In this document: piece by piece, positions 2,563 to 53,908 of the stretch
How positions within the stretch are numbered: the stretch's first letter is position 1
How the letters are laid out: each line of letters starts with the position of its first letter
NCBI RefSeq assembly: GCF_001293165.1
Contig: NZ_CP010552.1
Span: 1,116,001 to 1,180,000 of the forward strand
DNA from: Candidatus Thioglobus autotrophicus
GTDB lineage: Bacteria; Pseudomonadota; Gammaproteobacteria; PS1; Pseudothioglobaceae
Length of the DNA: 64,000 nucleotides
Direction: 5' to 3'
The notes under the pieces: generated by a model
What the model saw: the letters and a program-made list of their open reading frames with translations, nothing else
Database searches by the model: none
What the model was told of the DNA's origin: nothing
Program-made: the position numbers and the translations under genes

Positions 2563-2584
2563 CCCCTTTTATGGGGATTTTTTT
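2563..2584 (+). terminator. Hairpin with T-run in the soxX leader
   Basis: CCCC (2563-2566) can pair with GGGG (2573-2576), and seven T residues follow at 2578-2584. The stem is short. It lies between trpE and soxX, so it could end trpE transcription or act as an attenuator in the sox leader. An overlapping alternative hairpin, GGGTTTTAACCC (2552-2563), shares one C residue with it. Confidence 0.4.
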
Positions 2585-2603
2585 ATATAAAGAGGAGAGA
2601 AAC

Positions 2604-2951
2604 ATGAAGAAAACTATTTCTTCAATTTCGGCAGTAGCCGCTTTAGCAGCATTATTCGTAATGCCGTTACAAGCTGGTGCTAAAGAAATGACAGACGAAG
2701 AGGTTACTTTTGGTCGTAAAGCGGGCAATTGTTTAGCATGCCATATGATTCCAGGCGGAAACCTGCCAGGTAACATTGGTCCACCGCTACTTGCGATGAA
2801 GGCAAGATTTCCAAATAAAGCTGATTTAAGAGCTCAAATTTGGGATGCAACAGCAAAAAACCCAAACACAATTATGCCTCCTTTTGGAAAGCATGGTGTT
2901 TTGTCTGATAAGCAAATCGATCAAGTGACTAACTATATTTACACAAAATAA
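2604..2951 (+). CDS. soxX: SoxX, monoheme c-type cytochrome of the thiosulfate-oxidising complex
   Basis: SoxX is the small subunit of the periplasmic SoxXA cytochrome, which couples thiosulfate oxidatively to the SoxY carrier cysteine. The 115-residue product has a Sec signal peptide (about residues 1-26), one heme-binding CLACH motif (C43-H47) and a later Met in NTIMPPFG (M91), the expected axial ligand. The start is set at 2604, where AGAGGAGAGA gives a strong ribosome-binding site; an upstream in-frame ATG at 2571 lacks one and would spoil the signal peptide. It is the first gene of a tightly spaced soxXYZAK operon. The 9 bases GAGGAGAGA (2592-2600) recur exactly before soxA. Confidence 0.95.
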   Translation: MKKTISSISAVAALAALFVMPLQAGAKEMTDEEVTFGRKAGNCLACHMIPGGNLPGNIGPPLLAMKARFPNKADLRAQIWDATAKNPNTIMPPFGKHGVLSDKQIDQVTNYIYTK

Positions 2952-2961
2952 GGAGAAAACA

Positions 2962-3408
2962 ATGAAAAGAAGATTATTTTTAAAAAGTGCAATGGCAGGT
3001 TCTGCAGTTGCAACAGCAGTAGGCGCAGGCTTACTAACACCTTCAATGGTATTTGCAAACACTGCAGATTTTAAAGCGAAATCAGATGCAGCAACTGCAT
3101 CTATAGCAGCAGCAGGCAAAGGTTCATTTAAATTTAAAGCGCCTAAAATCGCTGAGAACGGTGCAGTAGTTCCAGTAACTGTAGATGCATCTAAGATGGA
3201 AGGTGTGACAAACATCTCTATCTCTGTTACTAAAAACGGTACACCATTGGCAGCTTCATTTAACTTATCTGGTGCAGCAGCAGGTTATGTTTCTACTCGT
3301 ATTAAAATGGGTACAACATCTCCAGTAGTAGCATTAGTTACTGCAGGTGGAGTAACTACTCAAGTTTCTCAGGAAGTTAAAGTAACAATTGGCGGCTGTG
3401 GCGGTTAA
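2962..3408 (+). CDS. soxY: SoxY, sulfur-carrier subunit
   Basis: SoxY carries the sulfur substrate covalently on a C-terminal cysteine during periplasmic thiosulfate oxidation and works as a heterodimer with SoxZ. The product has a signal peptide beginning MKRRLFLKSAMAGSAVA, of the Tat-like type (Arg-Arg, then a hydrophobic stretch) ending near residue 32, and finishes with the diagnostic swinging arm GGCGG (Cys146 of 148 residues). AAGGAG lies just upstream of the ATG, and the gene starts 10 bases after the soxX stop. All visible features match a functional SoxY. Confidence 0.96.
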   Translation: MKRRLFLKSAMAGSAVATAVGAGLLTPSMVFANTADFKAKSDAATASIAAAGKGSFKFKAPKIAENGAVVPVTVDASKMEGVTNISISVTKNGTPLAASFNLSGAAAGYVSTRIKMGTTSPVVALVTAGGVTTQVSQEVKVTIGGCGG

Positions 3409-3445
3409 TTCGGTAACCGAATCAAACAAATAAGGAGAATATAAG

Positions 3446-3748
3446 ATGGGATCAATTAAATTAAAACCAAAAGCTAGAAAAGGTGTAATCGGTATTAAGG
3501 CGCTTATTAAGCACCCTATGGAAACTGGTGCACGTAAAAAGAAAGGTAAATTAGTACCTGCAAATCATATTGTACATATGGTAGTTTCTCATAATGGTAC
3601 AGTTGTGGTAGATGCGGATATTGGTAGTACTATTTCTAAAAATCCGTATTTTAAGTTTAATGTTGCTGGCGCTAAAGGCGACACAATCGAACTTAAGTAC
3701 ACAGACAACAAGGGTAAGACTGGTTCTGAGACTGCAAAGTCTAAGTAA
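3446..3748 (+). CDS. soxZ: SoxZ, partner of the SoxY sulfur carrier
   Basis: SoxZ is a small beta-sandwich protein that pairs with SoxY and presents the carrier arm to the Sox enzymes. The 100-residue length is typical, and the sequence keeps family features such as the IKHPMETGARK segment near residues 22-32. There is no signal peptide, which is normal because SoxZ is exported together with SoxY. AAGGAG precedes the start. It follows soxY by 37 bases and precedes soxA by 25. Confidence 0.95.
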   Translation: MGSIKLKPKARKGVIGIKALIKHPMETGARKKKGKLVPANHIVHMVVSHNGTVVVDADIGSTISKNPYFKFNVAGAKGDTIELKYTDNKGKTGSETAKSK

Positions 3749-3773
3749 TCTCTTATTCAAAGAGGAGAGAGAA

Positions 3774-4589
3774 ATGAAAAAACTAATAACAGTAGTAGCT
3801 GGTATCGGTTTTTTAGTTGGAGCAGCATCTGCGGATGTCGCTTCTGACCAAAAAGATTTGATCGGTTATTTTAAAGCACTTAAACCTAATGTTGAGTTTG
3901 CAGACTACACCAATGGTGTTTATGCATATGATGCAGGTTCAAGAGATCAATTTGAAGAAATTTTAGATGGTATTCCTCCATATGAGGAAGCTGTTGAAAA
4001 AGGCGGAAAGGAGTTTGTTAAGTTCGGTCTTAATAAGTGTGCTGCACTTAAAGATCCTGCTGCAGCTCGTGTGAAGCATCCTTACTTTGACGAAGCAACT
4101 CAAAAAGTTGTAACTCTTGAAGGTGTTCTTAAGGCGTGTTACCTAGAGCAAACGGGTAAGAAGCTAGGCTCTAATAAAGGAAAAATCGCGCGCATTAGTG
4201 CATGGATTTCTGATCAAGCGGCTGGAGAAAAAGTCAATGTAAAGGTTGAAGGTGCTGCTGCAAATGCTGCTTACAACCAAGGTAAAGCTTACTTCTATGG
4301 AAAGCGTGGTGAGTTCAATATGTCATGTGCAGATTGTCATGTATACAATGCTGGTAAAAAAGCTCGTGCTGACATCTTATCACCTGCTCTAGGTCATACA
4401 ACACACGTACCGATGTATCGTGCGAAGTGGGCTGGTTTAGGTACGCTACAACGTCGTTATGGTGGTTGTTTGAAGAATATGCGTGCTAAGCCAATTAGTT
4501 CTCAATCTGAGTTAATGAATAACTTAGAGTATTTCCATCAAGCAATGAGTAACGGTCTAGAAATCACTGACGCTCGTTACAGAAAATAG
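3774..4589 (+). CDS. soxA: SoxA, catalytic cytochrome subunit of SoxXA
   Basis: SoxA, with SoxX, forms the heme enzyme that joins thiosulfate to the SoxY cysteine. The 271-residue product has a Sec signal peptide (about residues 1-20), a single CADCH heme site (C185-H189) and the catalytic cysteine in RRYGGCLKNMRAKP (C232), which becomes the cysteine-persulfide heme ligand. Two further cysteines, C89 and C122, take the place of the N-terminal heme present in diheme SoxA, so this is the monoheme type. The start at 3774 has AGAGGAGAGA immediately upstream and gives a proper signal peptide; reading upstream from 3612 would overlap soxZ. Confidence 0.95.
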   Translation: MKKLITVVAGIGFLVGAASADVASDQKDLIGYFKALKPNVEFADYTNGVYAYDAGSRDQFEEILDGIPPYEEAVEKGGKEFVKFGLNKCAALKDPAAARVKHPYFDEATQKVVTLEGVLKACYLEQTGKKLGSNKGKIARISAWISDQAAGEKVNVKVEGAAANAAYNQGKAYFYGKRGEFNMSCADCHVYNAGKKARADILSPALGHTTHVPMYRAKWAGLGTLQRRYGGCLKNMRAKPISSQSELMNNLEYFHQAMSNGLEITDARYRK

Positions 4590-4598
4590 GAGAATAAT

Positions 4599-4919
4599 AT
4601 GAAAAAGATACTAATAACAGCTCTATCAGTATTCGCCTTAACGGCTCAAGCTAATTTTTTAGGCGCTTCACATGACTGGAACAACGGCTCTTCTGACCCG
4701 TTTAAGTCTGCTATTTCTGCTGCTGAAACTGGCTATAAAGCCAACTTAGCAGTTAATATGGCATGGCGTGATACGGGCAAGATGATTAAGGATGCTAAAA
4801 AACTAAATGCTGCAGGTAAAACTGCTGCTGCAGTTAAGTTAGCAAATGCAGCTCATCATCAGACAGTACAAGCTACTGCTCAAGTTGATGCGGCTTTAAC
4901 TGCTGGTCCTCGTTTCTAA
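4599..4919 (+). CDS. soxK: SoxXA-binding protein (SoxK-like)
   Basis: This small secreted protein of 106 residues has a signal peptide (about residues 1-18, cut after AQA) followed by an alanine-rich, mostly helical mature part with no cysteines. Proteins of this size and composition directly after soxA are known as SoxXA-binding proteins (SoxK/SAXB), which bind SoxXA and raise its activity. The assignment rests on position, size and overall character rather than on a sharp motif. TAGGAG lies before the ATG, which is 9 bases after the soxA stop. It is the last gene of the operon. Confidence 0.75.
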   Translation: MKKILITALSVFALTAQANFLGASHDWNNGSSDPFKSAISAAETGYKANLAVNMAWRDTGKMIKDAKKLNAAGKTAAAVKLANAAHHQTVQATAQVDAALTAGPRF

Positions 4920-28760: not shown

Positions 28761-29387
28761 TTATAGCTTGACAGTCGTCAACCCTAGAGATTTCCAGTTT
28801 TGCATGCCACCACGGAAATATTTAATTTTAGCAGCTGGGTAGCCGTAGCTAAGTAGCGCTTTGACCGCCGCAGGCGTTTGTCCACACCAAATACCGTTGC
28901 AATACATCACCAAGGTTTTGGCGTAAGTAAAGTCAAACACATCATCTACTTGCACACCAAGCTGATCTTCCATGATCTCTAGCGCTTTATCTTTTTTCTT
29001 GAATTTGGTATATGGAATATTAACTGCAGTCGGTATGCCACCTGAAATCGTTACCCAGTTTGGAGTGCGAGTATCGATCACCATGATTGAATCATCACCA
29101 GAAGATTTTTGTTTGACATAATTAATCATATCAAGCTCACCAATAGTTTCAACCAAGTTCGGTGCAAACGGGTTCATGGGTTGGATTTTCCCACGTGCAG
29201 TTTTTAGGTAAAAATCAGAAATTTCATTATCCTGATCTTGATCACGCTGTAGTTTGACAGTTTTGTCATTATGCATAACCTCAATCGAAACTACTCCCGG
29301 AGACATAAACACTTGTTTGGTTTTTTCGCCTTCGGCACTGGCCATAAGCGGTAGTGTACTTATTAATAAAATTGCTAATTTATTCAT
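28761..29387 (-). CDS. Secreted rhodanese-like protein, CNGxWC type (paralogue 1)
   Basis: This 208-residue protein has a signal peptide (about residues 1-18), a conserved lead segment (KLQRDQDQDNEI, GKIQPMNPFAPNLVETIGELDMINYV) and a rhodanese domain whose active-site loop reads CNGIWCGQTP near residue 160. Rhodanese domains transfer sulfane sulfur through the first loop cysteine; the second cysteine three residues on is unusual. Two close relatives lie at 46825 and 47586. The periplasmic location suggests a role in handling thiosulfate-derived sulfur, an inference from the family and the sox-containing genome. GAGGAGAAA precedes the start. It is between rnfE and prmC, probably in one transcript. 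Confidence 0.85.
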   Translation of the reverse strand: MNKLAILLISTLPLMASAEGEKTKQVFMSPGVVSIEVMHNDKTVKLQRDQDQDNEISDFYLKTARGKIQPMNPFAPNLVETIGELDMINYVKQKSSGDDSIMVIDTRTPNWVTISGGIPTAVNIPYTKFKKKDKALEIMEDQLGVQVDDVFDFTYAKTLVMYCNGIWCGQTPAAVKALLSYGYPAAKIKYFRGGMQNWKSLGLTTVKL

Positions 29388-46824: not shown

Positions 46825-47475
46825 ATGATGCTACGTCAATTTTTTTATAAGTTTAATTTTTCTATATTGCTAGTCAGTGCTAGTTTGCAAATTATTGCAG
46901 ATAGTGAGGTGCCTGTAAAAGAGGTGTTAATCCAGAAAGACTTTAAGTCGATCAATGTTATTCATCATAGTGTTCCTGTTGATATTGAGCGAAATCAAGA
47001 TCGTAAAAATAATATCATGGCGTTTTATCAGGGAACTTGGCGTGGGAAAATACAGCCATTACATCCGTTTAAGCCTCACCCAGTAGAAACAGTAGCCGAG
47101 CTTGAAATGATCGATTATATTGATAAAATGTCCCATGGTGATGATTCTATTATGATTGTTGATTCACGCCCTAAATCAGCTATTTTAATTACCGGCATGA
47201 TTCCTGGTGCAACTCAGGTTGATTATATCGACATTGTTTCTAGTCATTACAGAGTAAAAGCTTTTGAATTATTTAATGTTAAAAAGAATAATTCCCAATG
47301 GGATTTTACCGATGCCAAAATATTAGTTATTTATTGCAATGGCCTTTGGTGTGGAAAATCTCCAAGAATGATTCGAAAGTTAATTAAACTTGGTTATCCA
47401 GCACAAAAAATTAAATACTATCGTGGCGGTATGCAAGCTTGGAAATCAGTCGGACTAACAACTGTTAAGGAATAA
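46825..47475 (+). CDS. Secreted rhodanese-like protein, CNGxWC type (paralogue 2)
   Basis: The 216-residue protein has an N-terminal hydrophobic signal segment (about residues 8-26), the shared lead WRGKIQPLHPFKPHPVETVAELEMIDYI, and the active-site loop CNGLWCGKSP near residue 171, followed by the shared end KIKYYRGGMQAWKSVGLTTVKE. It closely parallels the genes at 28761 and 47586. It is expected to move sulfane sulfur in the periplasm. No ATGGTTTACCAT palindrome is found before it; it may be read through from the M16 genes 38 bases upstream. Confidence 0.85.
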   Translation: MMLRQFFYKFNFSILLVSASLQIIADSEVPVKEVLIQKDFKSINVIHHSVPVDIERNQDRKNNIMAFYQGTWRGKIQPLHPFKPHPVETVAELEMIDYIDKMSHGDDSIMIVDSRPKSAILITGMIPGATQVDYIDIVSSHYRVKAFELFNVKKNNSQWDFTDAKILVIYCNGLWCGKSPRMIRKLIKLGYPAQKIKYYRGGMQAWKSVGLTTVKE

Positions 47476-47498
47476 TTTTTCCTTATTGTTGGATAATC

Positions 47499-47531
47499 AT
47501 GGTTTACCATAATATCATATTATTCTAATAT
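47499..47531 (+). promoter_or_regulatory. Palindromic operator and -10 element of the rhodanese-like gene
   Basis: The perfect palindrome ATGGTTTACCAT (47499-47510) is followed by AATAT and, 15 bases after the palindrome, TAATAT (47526-47531) as a probable -10. The segments ACCATAATAT and TTCTAATA occur at the same spacing before the cytochrome gene (53854-53886). The palindrome sits where an activator replacing a -35 element would bind. Confidence 0.65.
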
Positions 47532-47585
47532 AAATTAAAATACACACCTGGAATTATTAAAATTAAAAAAAATCTAGGGGTAAAT

Positions 47586-48293
47586 ATGAAATTGTTAGTC
47601 TTGATACCTGTTTTTACAGCTATTATCTTTGCGTCTGTAAGTGCCAATCAGCCAAATAAAGAAGTAATTAATGCTGTTGAATATAATTCAGTTATAAATA
47701 CTTCTAATGTTAAAAAAATAAAAAAGAAAAAGCCGGTATGGCTTAAACCTGGTGTTATTGGCACCACTCTGGTTGTAGACGGCAAGCCTTTTGTTATTGC
47801 TAGAAATCAGGATAGAAAACATCTTATTGCTAAGATTTATCAAAAAACAGGTCGGGGCATTATTAAGCCAATGCATCCGTTTAAACCGCACGCTGTAGAG
47901 ACTATTGCTGAGCATGAAATGATTTCATATATTTCTCGTTTATCATCGAAGAAGGGCGATGTTGTTGTGGTTGATGCCAGAAAATCAATTTGGCCAACAT
48001 TGACTGGAAGTCTTCCAGGGGCAATTCACGTGCCATTTCATCGATTTAAGAAAAACAAAAAATATGCACTCGAGACTCTTGAAGATGAATTCGGTGTTGT
48101 GATTAATAATAAGGGTGAAATGGATTTCTCCAATGCTAAAACATTAGCGGTTTATTGCAATGGAAATTGGTGCAAAATGTCTCCAGAACTTATTTGGGCG
48201 TTATTGGATTATGGCTATCCAGCTCACAAAATCAAATATTATCGTGGCGGCATGCAAGCTTGGCAACTGCTCGGATTGACCACTGTTGATTAA
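47586..48293 (+). CDS. Secreted rhodanese-like protein, CNGxWC type (paralogue 3)
   Basis: The 235-residue protein has a signal peptide (about residues 1-20), a lysine-rich linker (NVKKIKKKKPVW), the shared lead GRGIIKPMHPFKPHAVETIAEHEMISYI and the loop CNGNWCKMSP near residue 190. The end KIKYYRGGMQAWQLLGLTTVD is nearly the same as in paralogue 2. The protein is likely periplasmic and acts in sulfane-sulfur transfer. A palindromic operator lies 75 bases upstream. AGGGG precedes the start. Confidence 0.85.
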   Translation: MKLLVLIPVFTAIIFASVSANQPNKEVINAVEYNSVINTSNVKKIKKKKPVWLKPGVIGTTLVVDGKPFVIARNQDRKHLIAKIYQKTGRGIIKPMHPFKPHAVETIAEHEMISYISRLSSKKGDVVVVDARKSIWPTLTGSLPGAIHVPFHRFKKNKKYALETLEDEFGVVINNKGEMDFSNAKTLAVYCNGNWCKMSPELIWALLDYGYPAHKIKYYRGGMQAWQLLGLTTVD

Positions 48294-48325
48294 CAGCTGG
48301 ATTAATACATCAGCCTTTGATTTGT

Positions 48326-48357
48326 ATGGTTTACCATGATATAGGTCAACTGATATC
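48326..48357 (+). promoter_or_regulatory. Palindromic operator before the sensor kinase gene
   Basis: A second exact ATGGTTTACCAT (48326-48337) lies 36 bases before the kinase start. GATAT follows it, and TGATAT or GATATC (48351-48357) is near the -10 position seen at the sister sites, off by about 2 bases. This suggests that the two-component system controls its own gene. Confidence 0.55.
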
Positions 48358-48373: not shown

Positions 48374-50077
48374 ATGTCTTGGTATAAGTTTATTACCACT
48401 ATTGTTTTGTTATTTAGTTTCAATGCAGCCTTTAGTGCCAAACCCACTGAAATTACGATTGCTATTCAATCTTTTTTAGGGAAAGATGCTGCGTATCAAA
48501 AATGGCAGTCCACTACCGATTACCTTTCTCGTCGGATGCCCGATTATTCTTTCAACATTATTGTTGTTGATGCGCCAGATGATGCTTTGTTATACGATAT
48601 GGTGAAGCAAAAAAAAGTTGATTATGTCATTACCCAGCCTATTGCATCTGTTGAGCTTAATCGTCTATACAATACAAAAATTAATTTAACAAAAGTCAAC
48701 CAAGCAGGTGTTGATCAGCTTGGTGGTGTCATATTTACTTCGGTTAATAATCATTCCATTACTACTATTGAGGCATTGAAGGGTAATAGCTTTGCCGCTT
48801 CAACGCCAAGGCGATTAGGCGGTTGGCTGCTTGCCTTGGATTATTTACGCGATAAGGGTATAAACCCCCAAAGTGATTTTTCTAAAGTTGTTTTTTTAGG
48901 CTCTCAAGATAATATTGTCAATGCGGTTGTTAACGGTTTGGTTGATGCTGGCACGGTACGAACGGGCGTTATTGAAAAGATGATCGATTCAGGTCAATTG
49001 CGTATGGAACAGATTAAAGTACTCAATAATAAACAAAATTCTTCTTATTTTATAACGACAAAAACAGCGCCAGAATGGTCATTTTCATCACTCGAGCATA
49101 CTGATGTAGCACTCTCTAAAGAGGTGCAAATAGCATTGTTAAATTATCATGTTAACGGCCAAAAGCAGTGGAAAAAAGCACTAGATTATGAAGGTGTTCG
49201 TGCGTTAATCAGAAAGCACAGAATTGGCATCTATCAAGATCCTGGACATATTAATTTTTATAAAAAGAATTATCAATTAATTTTAATTATTTTACTGTTG
49301 ATTGCTTATTTATTGTTCATGTTAAAAAGCCGCCGAGAGTCTGAGATTCATAACTACAAGCTCAAGCTTGAAGAGTTATACAAAGTCTCATCAGTTGATC
49401 AGTTACTGTCAGAAATAGCACACGAACTGGCTCAACCCATTACTTCACTCAAAATTGATGCGCATATGTTAGATAGTATGCTGAAAAATCATGACAGCTG
49501 TCAGTTAGATGAAATTCGATCAACCTCAGATGGGTTGCGTGAAAAGACAGACCATTGTGTTGATTTGATTTTGAATATTCGTCAATTCTTATCAACAAAA
49601 ACCACTGTTAAGGAAATTTTCAATATTAATAATAATGTTGAAAGAATTATTCGATTATTAAAAAATGAACTCAATGAGCATAATATTGAGGTGAGATTAT
49701 CCCTTAAACAGAACTTACCAGATGTTAATATGAGCCCCGTTGAGCTTGACCAAGTGCTACTTAATTTAAGTAAAAATGCCATCAGCGCCATGGCAGATAA
49801 TCAAAAATCTGACAATGTGCTTAGTATTTTTACAACTGATAAACAAGGTTTTGTTGAGATTATAGTCAGTGATACCGGCTCAGAAATTAAAGATAAATTG
49901 CATTTATTTGATTTGTTTAAAACATCAAAAAAGCAAGGAGAGGTAGAGGGATTGGGTATTGGTTTGAGTTTGAGTCGACGCATTGTTCGTTCTTATGCGG
50001 GTGAATTATCGTTAGAATCTAGTTCAATTGGGGGTAGTCAATTTATGGTAAAAATTCCGAGTATTAAAGATGAATGA
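48374..50077 (+). CDS. TtrS-like sensor histidine kinase with PhnD-type periplasmic domain
   Basis: The 567-residue protein has a signal segment (about residues 1-22), a PhnD-like periplasmic binding domain (about 25-290, with DYVITQPIASVELNRLYNT and GNSFAASTPRRLGGW), one membrane segment (about 300-318), and a kinase with the phospho-acceptor EIAHELAQPITS (H350), the N box LLNLSKNAISAM, a D box SDTGS and the G box GLGIGLSLSRRIV. This layout is that of TtrS, the tetrathionate sensor. In a sox-bearing cell tetrathionate, thiosulfate or a related sulfur compound is a reasonable signal, but the ligand is inferred. No tetrathionate reductase genes are near. It overlaps the regulator gene by 8 bases. 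Confidence 0.85.
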   Translation: MSWYKFITTIVLLFSFNAAFSAKPTEITIAIQSFLGKDAAYQKWQSTTDYLSRRMPDYSFNIIVVDAPDDALLYDMVKQKKVDYVITQPIASVELNRLYNTKINLTKVNQAGVDQLGGVIFTSVNNHSITTIEALKGNSFAASTPRRLGGWLLALDYLRDKGINPQSDFSKVVFLGSQDNIVNAVVNGLVDAGTVRTGVIEKMIDSGQLRMEQIKVLNNKQNSSYFITTKTAPEWSFSSLEHTDVALSKEVQIALLNYHVNGQKQWKKALDYEGVRALIRKHRIGIYQDPGHINFYKKNYQLILIILLLIAYLLFMLKSRRESEIHNYKLKLEELYKVSSVDQLLSEIAHELAQPITSLKIDAHMLDSMLKNHDSCQLDEIRSTSDGLREKTDHCVDLILNIRQFLSTKTTVKEIFNINNNVERIIRLLKNELNEHNIEVRLSLKQNLPDVNMSPVELDQVLLNLSKNAISAMADNQKSDNVLSIFTTDKQGFVEIIVSDTGSEIKDKLHLFDLFKTSKKQGEVEGLGIGLSLSRRIVRSYAGELSLESSSIGGSQFMVKIPSIKDE

Positions 50078-50669
50078 TTTACTTAAACAATCAGTCAATG
50101 TCTATATTGTTGATGATGAGGCTGAAATTAGAGAGTCGTTGTCACGATTTTTTACTTATCATGGTTGCCAGGTTGAAGTTTTTGCTGATGCAAAAAGCTA
50201 TCTCGATCAGCTTGATCAAAGTCAAGTAGGTTGTTTGGTGAGTGATATTGATATGGAAGGGATGAGTGGTCTTGGGCTTCAGCGTCATTTGCAAGAGATT
50301 AACTGTATTCGCCCCACTATTTTTATGACGGGTCATGGTAGTGTAAATCTTGCTGTTAAGGCAATGAAGCTGGGTGCAACTGACTTTATTGAAAAGCCTT
50401 TTGATCCAAATATTTTGCTTAAAAAAATTAAAATTTGTATTGATTCAAATCGTAAGCAAATTGAATTGCTTGGTCGTTATCGCACGCTTACCAAAAAAGA
50501 ATGTGAAATTTTTGAGTGTGTTGCTAAAGGTAAAAAGAATAAGGAGATGGCCGAAAATTTGTGTATTTCTATGCCCACTGTTGAAGCGCACCGCTCTCGG
50601 GTTATGAAAAAGATGCAAGCAAGCTCTTTGTCAGAGTTGGTAAAAATGTCAGTTACTCTGTCAAAATAA
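50070..50669 (+). CDS. TtrR-like response regulator (FixJ family)
   Basis: The 199-residue protein has an N-terminal receiver domain (IVDDEAEIRE, phospho-acceptor in VSDIDMEGMSG near residue 59, switch lysine in EKPFDPN) and a C-terminal LuxR-type helix-turn-helix (TKKECEIFECVAKGKKNKEMAENLCISMPTVEAHRSRVMKKM; key: LT-E, VA-G--NKE-A--L-IS--TVE-HR). It is the partner of the upstream kinase. It probably binds the ATGGTTTACCAT palindromes found nearby. Normal for the family in length and motifs. Confidence 0.9.
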   Translation: MNDLLKQSVNVYIVDDEAEIRESLSRFFTYHGCQVEVFADAKSYLDQLDQSQVGCLVSDIDMEGMSGLGLQRHLQEINCIRPTIFMTGHGSVNLAVKAMKLGATDFIEKPFDPNILLKKIKICIDSNRKQIELLGRYRTLTKKECEIFECVAKGKKNKEMAENLCISMPTVEAHRSRVMKKMQASSLSELVKMSVTLSK

Positions 50670-51453: not shown

Positions 51454-52757
51454 CACCCCAATAAATTAAGACAACAATTTAAGATTTCTTATTTCGAACG
51501 AGTTAAACTTAACCCAACAATTCGGAGTAAAAAATTATGAGTAAAAAACGTACAACCTACAGCTCAGCATTTAAAACAAAATTAGTACTTGAACTATTAC
51601 AAAATGCAGATACCCTGGCAGAGATTGCCAGCAAGCATAACATTCTTCCACAAAACCTAGTGAACTGGAAGAAGACCTTCCTTGCCAACGCAGAGATTGC
51701 TATGGAGCCCTCTAAAGCAGTTAAAGAGTACAAGGAGGAGCTTATTAAATCACAAGAGAAGAACGAGCGCTTAACAGCGCTGGTAGGTAAAGTAACCGTA
51801 GAGAAGGAATGGTTAGCAAAAAAGCTAAAAAGCTTGGGCTCATCTAAACTAAAACAATTAGTTGATCTCAAGCCATCACCAGCATCTATCTCTATTAATC
51901 ATCAATGTCAGCTGCTTGGCATTAACAGAAGTGGCTTGTATTACAAGCCACGAGTTAACCACGCCAAGCAAACAATTAAGAGTCATATCACCAAGGTGTT
52001 TGAACAGATACCCATTTACGGCGAGAAGAAGGTGCATCAGCAACTGCTTGAGGATGGTATCAAGGTCAGCTTAAATACGGTAGCTCGCTACCGTCAAGAG
52101 TTGGGCTTAAAGGCTGTATTGGCCGTTAAACAAGTCAATACAACCATGCCAATCAAAGAGCATAAGAAATACACCTATAAGCTCAGAGGGCTTAATATTA
52201 GCCATGCTAATCATGTCTGGAGTACCGACATCACCTACATCAAGATTGCCGGTGGCATGGTCTATATGGCAGCCATCATTGATTGGCACAGCAAAGCTGT
52301 GCTATCACACAGAATATCTAACACCATGGATGTTCAGTTAGTGATGAGTGTGCTCAATGATGCACTAGCTAAGTATCCATATCCAGAGATCTTTAACACC
52401 GATCAAGGTAGCCAGTACACCAGTGAGATACACACTCAAAGGCTTAAAAATCTAGGTATTACTATATCCATGGATGGTAGGGGTAGAGCCACAGATAATA
52501 TCTGCATTGAGCGCTTCTGGCGAAGCGCCAAATGCGAAAGAATCTATTTGAACGAATACCAAAATATCAATGAGTTAACCACTGATGTAGATGACTATAT
52601 TGAGTTTTACAACCATCGAAGATTCCATCAAACGCTAGACTACAAAAAACCAATGGACGTGTACCAAGAAAGTATAAAATTAAACCAGAATAAGAAGAAG
52701 GCCTCTTAGGATGTTCTATATAAGAAATTTTAAAAAGTTGTCAGAGGTTTTGGGGTG
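51454..52757 (+). mobile_element. Complete IS3-family insertion sequence
   Basis: The 1304-base element has imperfect inverted repeats of about 39 bases: the left begins CACCCCAATAAATTAAGACA (51454 on) and the right, read on the minus strand, begins CACCCCAAAACCTCTGACAA (52757 back). Both run to a shared TTTCTTA. It encodes one intact transposase and is flanked by ATAA duplications, so it may still be active. It inserted directly beside, or into the edge of, an older relative whose 3' part survives at 52763-53260. Confidence 0.9.
51537..52709 (+). CDS. IS3-family transposase (fused OrfAB)
   Basis: The 390-residue protein combines an N-terminal helix-turn-helix (KRTTYSSAFKTKLVLELL, as in OrfA), a leucine-rich coiled-coil (about residues 65-105), and an integrase catalytic domain with the DDE triad: D in WSTDITY near residue 230, D in NTDQGSQYTS near 288 and E in CIERFW near 324. 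Many IS3 elements make the fusion only by frameshifting; here one frame encodes the whole protein. GGAG lies before the ATG. Confidence 0.93.
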   Translation: MSKKRTTYSSAFKTKLVLELLQNADTLAEIASKHNILPQNLVNWKKTFLANAEIAMEPSKAVKEYKEELIKSQEKNERLTALVGKVTVEKEWLAKKLKSLGSSKLKQLVDLKPSPASISINHQCQLLGINRSGLYYKPRVNHAKQTIKSHITKVFEQIPIYGEKKVHQQLLEDGIKVSLNTVARYRQELGLKAVLAVKQVNTTMPIKEHKKYTYKLRGLNISHANHVWSTDITYIKIAGGMVYMAAIIDWHSKAVLSHRISNTMDVQLVMSVLNDALAKYPYPEIFNTDQGSQYTSEIHTQRLKNLGITISMDGRGRATDNICIERFWRSAKCERIYLNEYQNINELTTDVDDYIEFYNHRRFHQTLDYKKPMDVYQESIKLNQNKKKAS

Positions 52758-52762
52758 ATAAA

Positions 52763-53212
52763 GTGTATATGGCAGCCATCATTGATTGGCATAGTAAAGC
52801 TGTGCTATCGTATAAGATATCAAATACCATGGATACTCAGCTTGTCATGGGTGTACTTAATGAAGCTTTGGAGAAATACCCACATCCAGAGATATTTAAT
52901 ACTGATCAAGGCAGTCAATACACCAGCGAGATACATGCGCAGCGCCTTAAAAATCTAGGTATTACTATATCCATGGATGGTAAAGGTAGAGCGACAGACA
53001 ATATCTGCATTGAGCGCTTCTGGCGAAGCGCTAAAGTTGAAAGAATCTATTTAAATGCATACCAATCCATTGGCGAGTTAACTACCGATGTAGATGACTA
53101 TATCGAATTTTACAACCATCGTAGATTCCATGAAACACTAGACTACAAAAAACCAATGGATGTGTATCAAGAGAGTATAAAATTGAACCAGAATAAGAAG
53201 AAGGCTTCTTAG
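52763..53212 (+). pseudogene. Truncated IS3-family transposase fragment
   Basis: The fragment encodes the last 149 residues (MYMAAIIDWHSKAVLSYKIS onward) of an IS3-type transposase. It retains NTDQGSQYTS and CIERFW but lacks the first catalytic aspartate and the DNA-binding region, so it cannot be functional. The GTG at 52763 is only the accidental edge of the homologous segment. Confidence 0.9.
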
Positions 53213-53260: not shown

Positions 53261-53277
53261 GTGAAAACCTTTCAAAT

Positions 53278-53310
53278 ATGGTTTACCATAATAGACTATT
53301 TATTCAATAT
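53278..53310 (+). promoter_or_regulatory. Palindromic operator and -10 element before a candidate small RNA
   Basis: A third exact ATGGTTTACCAT (53278-53289) lies 17 bases beyond the end of the IS remnant. It is followed by AATA and, at the same spacing as before the rhodanese gene, CAATAT (53305-53310). No protein gene lies downstream on this strand before the terminator at 53405-53435. Confidence 0.55.
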
Positions 53311-53454: not shown

Positions 53455-53802
53455 TTAGTATGAGTTACTGGCTTGGACTACTTTGACATTCATAATAAAT
53501 TGATAATATTCATCATTTAAATATTTAACGATTTCCTTTTCCTCTTCTGGAAACCAAGCAGAATCGTAGTAGTTTGAGCAGCGATTAATTTGACCTTTTA
53601 AATCGGCAAAGTTTTTGATCTTGGCGCCACCTAAAGAACGAGACTCGTAAAATTCTCGATTATGACTATAATTCGCACCACTATCTTTATGACAATTCAA
53701 ACAGGTTTCGTTGTGAATATCTTGAGCGTTAAAAGCCGTAGCTGTATTTAATAGGCTAAAACTTAGTGTGATTGCTAGTGCTTTTAAAATCTTAACTTTC
53801 AT
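53455..53802 (-). CDS. Small periplasmic monoheme c-type cytochrome
   Basis: The 115-residue protein has a signal peptide (about residues 1-23), one heme motif CLNCH (C34-H38), and the ending CSNYYDSAWFPEEEKEIVKYLNDEYYQF (key: C----WFPEEE--VKYLN--YY) common to a group of small cytochromes acting with sulfur- or nitrogen-compound enzymes. The later cysteine near 75 is typical. It probably passes electrons in the periplasm; the partner is unknown. An operator-like palindrome with matching -10 lies 72 bases upstream. Confidence 0.88.
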   Translation of the reverse strand: MKVKILKALAITLSFSLLNTATAFNAQDIHNETCLNCHKDSGANYSHNREFYESRSLGGAKIKNFADLKGQINRCSNYYDSAWFPEEEKEIVKYLNDEYYQFIMNVKVVQASNSY

Positions 53803-53853: not shown

Positions 53854-53886
53854 GTATTAGAAGATTAGTATATTATGGTATTCCAT
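53854..53886 (-). promoter_or_regulatory. Palindromic operator and -10 element of the cytochrome gene
   Basis: On the minus strand ATGGAATACCAT (53886-53875) is followed by AATAT and by TAATAC (53859-53854), with ACCATAATAT and TTCTAATA in the same relative places as before the rhodanese gene at 47499-47531. The palindrome keeps ATGG/CCAT but differs at two central bases. The distance to the cytochrome start is also nearly the same (72 against 75 bases). Confidence 0.65.
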
Positions 53887-53908
53887 ATTTATGATGAGAG
53901 GCTCGCTA

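Follow-up and report, generated by a model that had tools for sequence, protein, structure and literature searches.

Removal of the sulfane sulfur from SoxY is an open step in sulfur oxidizers that lack SoxCD, and SoxL has been proposed to perform this step. In Allochromatium vinosum, SoxL (Alvin_2171) is described as a rhodanese-like periplasmic sulfurtransferase, the gene of which is found directly after soxX-soxA-soxK; it is said to transfer sulfane sulfur and to regenerate the SoxY cysteine, and was proposed to stand in for SoxCD (PMC3368242). According to PMC4136832, which cites earlier work on this point, SoxL is most likely active in SoxYZ turnover. Single-domain rhodaneses such as GlpE and yeast RDL2 have an active loop of six residues, which in RDL2 spans Cys106 to Arg111, and replacement of this arginine (R111I) leads to loss of persulfide formation from thiosulfate (PMC8533005). 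On the regulatory side, the proven thiosulfate operator of ThsR from Shewanella is TATGTGGTTTACCACAAT (PMC5408782).

Here, we describe a family of rhodanese-like proteins encoded in a stretch of 64,000 nucleotides (referred to as the window) from Candidatus Thioglobus autotrophicus, the genome of which is a single contig of 1,512,449 bases. We consider it rather likely that the window proteins are SoxL-type sulfurtransferases that act on a Sox-bound persulfide and in which a second loop cysteine would function as a resolving thiol.

Rhodanese Paralogues of the Window

The features of the window are collected in Table 1. An earlier reading, made from the sequence alone, had pointed to three paralogues that share a signal peptide, a lead segment and a CNGxWC loop. 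The observation is real: all three genes are intact open reading frames, and their products have the lead segment, the loop and a hydrophobic N-terminus of the secretion type (seen by eye) and match the rhodanese profile PF00581 with E-values from 4e-11 to 7e-10 (39.7, 43.3 and 43.6 bits, cut-off 22.2). The three genes stood, but two points had been missed: copy 3 is encoded on the minus strand (translated on the plus strand, 28761-29387 is full of stops), and the genome harbors two additional copies, which form a tandem pair (G000:C1:204811-206190) with a CPPFC motif in their lead. The two-cysteine family makes up five of the 16 PF00581 matches in the genome. Copy 3 is flanked by an RnfE-like gene and prmC, and many SUP05 relatives have the same flanks; the closest relatives of copy 1 (L015 and L016) adjoin regulators of the FixJ/TtrR type. 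An alpha/beta hydrolase gene recurs beside SUP05 members of the family (L009, L015, L016 and L092), and the one in L015, the sole one profiled, matches DUF3530.

All three copies are located away from the sox cluster of the window. Within this cluster SoxA was named by the profile TIGR04484, and SoxX, SoxY and SoxZ by sequence reading; SAXB, the SoxAX-binding protein, matches NF052674 with E=4.5e-15, which is under the profile cut-off. This SAXB (4599-4919) and one genomic rhodanese paralogue (L009:6809-7495) have a common WNNGSS motif right after the signal peptide.

Table 1. Positions of the rhodanese genes, their active loops, the operator-like sites and related genes within the window.
Feature	Position	Strand	Basis
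SoxL-type rhodanese copy 1, 216 aa	46825..47475	+	intact ORF, PF00581 match
Active loop CNGLWC of copy 1, residues 171-176	47335..47352	+	
SoxL-type rhodanese copy 2, 235 aa, palindrome 5' of gene	47586..48293	+	intact ORF, PF00581 match
Active loop CNGNWC of copy 2, residues 191-196	48156..48173	+	
SoxL-type rhodanese copy 3, 208 aa	28761..29387	-	intact ORF, PF00581 match, AlphaFold2 model
Active loop CNGIWC of copy 3, residues 163-168	28884..28901	-	
Sox cluster: SoxX, SoxY, SoxZ, SoxA, SAXB; rhodanese absent	2571..4919	+	profiles and sequence reading
Palindromic operator-like site CATGGTTTACCATAATAT, 5' of copy 2, contains TGGTTTACCA	47498..47515	+	sequence
Palindromic operator-like site TATGGTTTACCATGATAT, 5' of histidine kinase	48325..48342	+	sequence
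Third operator-like site, edge of transposase remnant	53277..53294	+	sequence
Degenerate operator-like site, 2 mismatches, 5' of small CxxCH protein; weak	53870..53887	-	
Membrane histidine kinase, PhnD-like periplasmic sensor, TtrS/ThsS architecture	48374..50077	+	PF12974 E=2.5e-35
FixJ/TtrR-type response regulator	50070..50669	+	GerE and receiver domains

An AlphaFold2 model of copy 3 (pLDDT 91.4, pTM 0.84) displays a rhodanese fold over approximately residues 67-208, for which the best VIA-align match is 3o3w (Z 13.0, rmsd 2.7, 108 aligned residues); a CPxxC member of the family from L092 was modeled with pLDDT 90.5 and pTM 0.83. Residues ~30 to 66 of copy 3 are confidently ordered in the model and yet reside outside the rhodanese fold, i.e., the lead segment is real. 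The earlier claim that the lead is not part of the classical rhodanese domain therefore holds up to about residue 66, but not for the VETIGELE end, with which the rhodanese domain starts. The fold and the six-residue active loop are common to GlpE, RDL2 and the window family, but the latter differs in having a secretion-type N-terminus, a lead of ~40 ordered residues and a Cys instead of an Arg at loop position 6.

Distribution and Link to Sox Genes

Relatives in contigs of named genomes were collected in one scan with the fetch patterns KIKY[YF]RGG and PF[AK]P..VET, in which the loop is not included, and were then confirmed through whole-protein similarity; 186 were found, 80 of which were kept as loci. 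The hosts of these 80 named loci include SUP05/Thioglobus, Thiotrichaceae, Neptunomonas, Marinobacterium, Thiomicrorhabdus, a Solemya symbiont, Arcobacteraceae and others. Together with loci from other genomes, 154 non-redundant proteins matching the family profile were obtained. Among 56 viral pattern matches that were checked, none was a true family member. The Pfam and NCBIfam profiles gave no family-specific match; TIGR03865 (PQQ-associated CXXCW protein), which is also rhodanese-like, matches weakly around the loop (E about 1e-3), but with only 19-24 bits (19.0 to 19.5 for the window copies) at a cut-off of 128, and its name carries a different motif.

Of 370 gammaproteobacterial genomes that were drawn, 89 have the family, 183 have SoxA (TIGR04484, E<=1e-10) and 84 have both. 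In other words, SoxA is present in 84 of the 89 family-positive and in 99 of the 281 family-negative genomes (Fisher p 3e-25, uncorrected for phylogeny). Sox genes are found within 10 kb of the family gene in 21 of the 80 named loci, and in 20 of the 80 the family gene is located 12-43 bp upstream of soxB on the same strand (SoxB was checked in one such locus, L046, E=1.8e-250; SoxA, SoxC, SoxX, SoxY and SoxZ were each profile-checked in one sox-linked locus). The gene order is soxA, SAXB, rhodanese in L157, and a soxCD part, X, Y, Z, A, SAXB, rhodanese, soxB in L158 and L159, while in L160 the rhodanese has soxZ, soxY and soxA as neighbors, together with flavocytochrome c genes (part of the ORFs were profiled). 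In L155 and L156 a single open reading frame encodes an N-terminal SAXB fused to the rhodanese; in the L156 fusion the SAXB match covers residues 13-102 (E=3.7e-24, slightly under the cut-off) and the rhodanese residues 193-314. The proteins almost certainly form a family that serves the Sox system in sulfur transfer. The family is not essential to Sox because it is absent from 84 of the 167 genomes in which SoxA scores over its cut-off.

The position after soxXAK, found for A. vinosum SoxL, is matched in L157, in L155 and L156 the rhodanese is fused to the SoxK/SAXB part, and the trait of adjoining soxX-soxA-soxK is found in relatives L155-L159. Rather than being new, the family is probably the one already known as SoxL, a likeness based on gene position in relatives rather than on sequence. 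There are also differences: the window copies are scattered outside the sox cluster, are part of a set of five in the genome and in one case adjoin a two-component system.

The proposal that SoxL stands in for SoxCD can be compared with the distribution of SoxC. Where SoxA scores over its cut-off, SoxC is found in 14 of 83 family-positive and in 19 of 84 family-negative genomes (p 0.44), i.e., it is neither depleted nor enriched where the family is present, and a role of SoxL as a mere substitute for SoxCD was rejected. The family also occurs with soxC in one and the same cluster, in Arcobacteraceae and in G025 and G338. Its role thus goes beyond a replacement of SoxCD.

In SoxA, a cysteine persulfide is the ligand of the active-site heme. 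One may therefore ask whether the rhodanese serves SoxA instead of SoxY, i.e., installs or repairs this persulfide. The SAXB fusion would place the enzyme at SoxAX and speaks for SoxAX no less than for SoxYZ; the soxA-SAXB-rhodanese order in other genomes, the strong co-occurrence with SoxA and the absence of a relation to SoxC also fit with a SoxA function. Nevertheless, we regard this explanation as unlikely, because SoxA can mature without the rhodanese in the 84 of 167 genomes mentioned above, and SoxL is reported to act most likely in SoxYZ turnover.

The Two-Cysteine Loop

The second cysteine of the loop (Cys2) is found at +5 from the nucleophile (Cys1), i.e., where ordinary rhodaneses carry the loop-end Arg. 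Of the eleven other rhodaneses encoded in this genome, six were read, and all six have Arg at this position (CRSGSR, CRSGNR, CHHGIR, CGRNLR, CLSGAR and CTGGIR). Two fragments among the 154 family-profile proteins stop before the loop; in the remaining 152, Cys2 is kept in 151 (the exception is an Asp) and Cys1 in 149, with 149 Cys-Cys, two Ser-Cys and one Ser-Asp pairs. The Ser-Cys pairs are found in the second tandem copies of Thiomicrorhabdus (L056:9860-11383 and L071:9902-11355). In an alignment of 49 diverse members, Cys1 is nearly invariant and Cys2 is invariant, and the CNGxWC motif is kept in plasmid relatives from Salipiger, Hoeflea, Sulfurovum and Xanthobacter (4 of 10 plasmid matches) at identities down to 28%. 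The two-cysteine loop is a hallmark of the family. The cysteine at +5 noted in the sequence-only reading is thus conserved beyond chance throughout the wider family, and no known family with a non-sulfur function was found to account for these proteins. A divergent gammaproteobacterial member (L118:1447-2148) has the loop SNGNWD, in which both cysteines are gone; its host genome, G029, is without a SoxA match.

The number of cysteines was surveyed in 131 proteins. This set omits 23 of the 154, i.e., the two loopless fragments, two partial copies (L053 and L115) and 19 copies of normal full length (16 sox-linked ones of Campylobacterota, one of Neptunomonas and two tandem copies of L109); the same 23 proteins are excluded from the CPxxC count and from the tree of 124 rows given below, while the partial and the full-length ones are included in the loop count of 152 proteins. 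The number of cysteines after residue 25 is mostly even (four in 77 and two in 44 of the 131 proteins), and 75 of the 131 have a CPxxC motif in the lead. The lead type, with or without CPxxC, switches at least two times on the tree.

Such even numbers would be expected if the two cysteines of the loop were joined in a disulfide with a structural or protective role in the oxidizing periplasm, i.e., a redox switch and not a relay, with the CPxxC of the lead as a second disulfide, and the retention of Cys2 in the two Thiomicrorhabdus copies where Cys1 is replaced by Ser also speaks for this reading. However, a permanent Cys1-Cys2 bond would block the nucleophile of a sulfurtransferase, and the partnerless Cys2 of the Ser copies is not explained by a plain disulfide, which makes this explanation quite unlikely.

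Proposed Reaction Model

For the SoxL-type sulfurtransferase we envisage the following sequence of events. At the SoxAX-SoxYZ complex, Cys1 would accept sulfane sulfur from the persulfide of the SoxY carrier, such that SoxYZ would become free for the next round. Cys2, at the loop-end site that is occupied by Arg or Thr elsewhere, would then attack the Cys1 persulfide and resolve it as a disulfide or trisulfide, and this step would release sulfide or hand the sulfur on. Finally, the rhodanese would be re-reduced by a thioredoxin-like protein. A cluster of thioredoxin-like genes (named from its sequence) is found near the family gene in 15 loci, and these recurrent neighbors could supply the reductant; in L066, the one locus checked, a cytochrome-thioredoxin protein follows soxB.

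Family Cys2 occupies the same +5 position as Arg111 of RDL2. The loop-end Arg or Thr of thiosulfate-active rhodaneses is absent from the family (Cys in 151 of 152, Asp in one), and with the arginine lost, free thiosulfate is presumably a poor donor; by analogy with RDL2, thiosulfate as a direct donor is doubtful. A general periplasmic thiosulfate sulfurtransferase or scavenger of sulfane sulfur that has no Sox partner would be consistent with the position of the window copies outside the sox cluster, with the occurrence of members in five genomes of gammaproteobacteria that have no SoxA match at E<=1e-10 and with plasmid members (no sox gene in the four regions, from Alphaproteobacteria and Sulfurovum, opened of the ten matches), but is very unlikely considering the presence of SoxA in 84 of 89 family-positive genomes, the operon position, the SAXB fusion and the Arg to Cys replacement at the position that RDL2 needs for thiosulfate cleavage.

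More tentatively, the proteins may represent a separate class of sulfurtransferases of the Sox system. Their rhodanese loop would have a resolving Cys in exchange for the Arg that cleaves thiosulfate, they would dock to SoxAX through SAXB, sometimes within one polypeptide, and a Cys-S(n)-Cys relay would act on persulfides of the SoxY arm or of the SoxA heme ligand, one copy in the window organism being switched on by a ThsSR-like thiosulfate sensor; this broader scheme is possible rather than probable. In the titles and abstracts of the literature searched, no Sox rhodanese with a second loop cysteine was recognized.

Putative Thiosulfate Control

Palindromes of sequence ATGGTTTACCAT are found at 47499 (copy 2) and 48326 (kinase), with a third at 53278. 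The observation that only one copy has the operator is true among the three window paralogues (the 47586 copy), which differ upstream; the same palindrome also precedes the adjacent kinase gene (48325), with a third copy at 53277. The pattern ATGGTNNACCAT occurs at four sites in the genome, three of which are these window sites, while the reversed control pattern occurs twice. A ten-base core, TGGTTTACCA, is common to the window palindromes and the ThsR operator. Four copies of this core are found in the genome, three of them in this region, and the reversed control yields four and three copies on the two strands, respectively; the argument is therefore the clustering of the sites and not their rarity alone. 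No operator above chance was found near the tandem pair at 204.8-206.2 kb.

The window system has a PhnD-like sensor kinase, a FixJ-like regulator and the core TGGTTTACCA in common with ThsSR and TtrSR. Unlike these systems it adjoins rhodaneses rather than a thiosulfate or tetrathionate reductase, and it scores under the TtrS and TtrR cut-offs (kinase against NF040750: E=7e-52, 176.7 bits, cut-off 750; regulator against the TtrR profile: 147.3 bits, cut-off 290). Just downstream, at 51537-53212, an IS3-type transposase is followed by a truncated second copy, with the third operator-like site at the far edge. On the minus strand, 53455-53802 encodes a small protein that looks secreted, has a single CxxCH motif and matches no profile of Pfam or NCBIfam; the degenerate operator-like site is located upstream of it. 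In L016 (12537-15107), beside a relative of copy 1, a kinase with NMT1 and SBP_bac_3 periplasmic sensors replaces the PhnD-type kinase.

A comparable arrangement is found in a genome of another family (G217), where a PhnD-sensor kinase (PF12974 E=3.9e-38), 29% identical to the window kinase over the sensor part, and a regulator 43% identical to that of the window are located between a divergent SoxB-like ORF (read from the sequence) and soxX-soxA-SAXB::rhodanese. A near-identical operator-like site, AGGTTTACCATTATAT, is found there just after the regulator and before soxX. Across the 370 genomes the 15-bp operator pattern yields 10 sites in nine genomes, compared to four for the reversed control. 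Two of the ten are the window's own, and among the other eight only that of G217 adjoins sox genes; around the remaining seven, the readable ORFs within about 1.5 kb include neither sox genes nor a two-component system or a member of the family. No operator was found within one mismatch in L015 and L016, or within four mismatches in the soxX promoter of G110.

Judging from the operator and the kind of sensor, copy 2 would be induced, together with the kinase-regulator pair, by thiosulfate or a similar oxyanion, and copies 1 and 3 would be outside the control of this site. Like the proposed loop chemistry, regulation by a thiosulfate-type sensor, as suggested by these sequence features, is a good and testable prediction.

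Conclusions

Cys2 is as conserved as the nucleophile and is located at the site of the Arg involved in thiosulfate chemistry; the alignment therefore offers a sharp test of the proposed chemistry. The lack of any link to SoxC speaks against a simple replacement of SoxCD by SoxL. For SUP05-type bacteria, which are important in oxygen-minimum zones of the ocean, the operator points to a thiosulfate regulon that can be put to the test.
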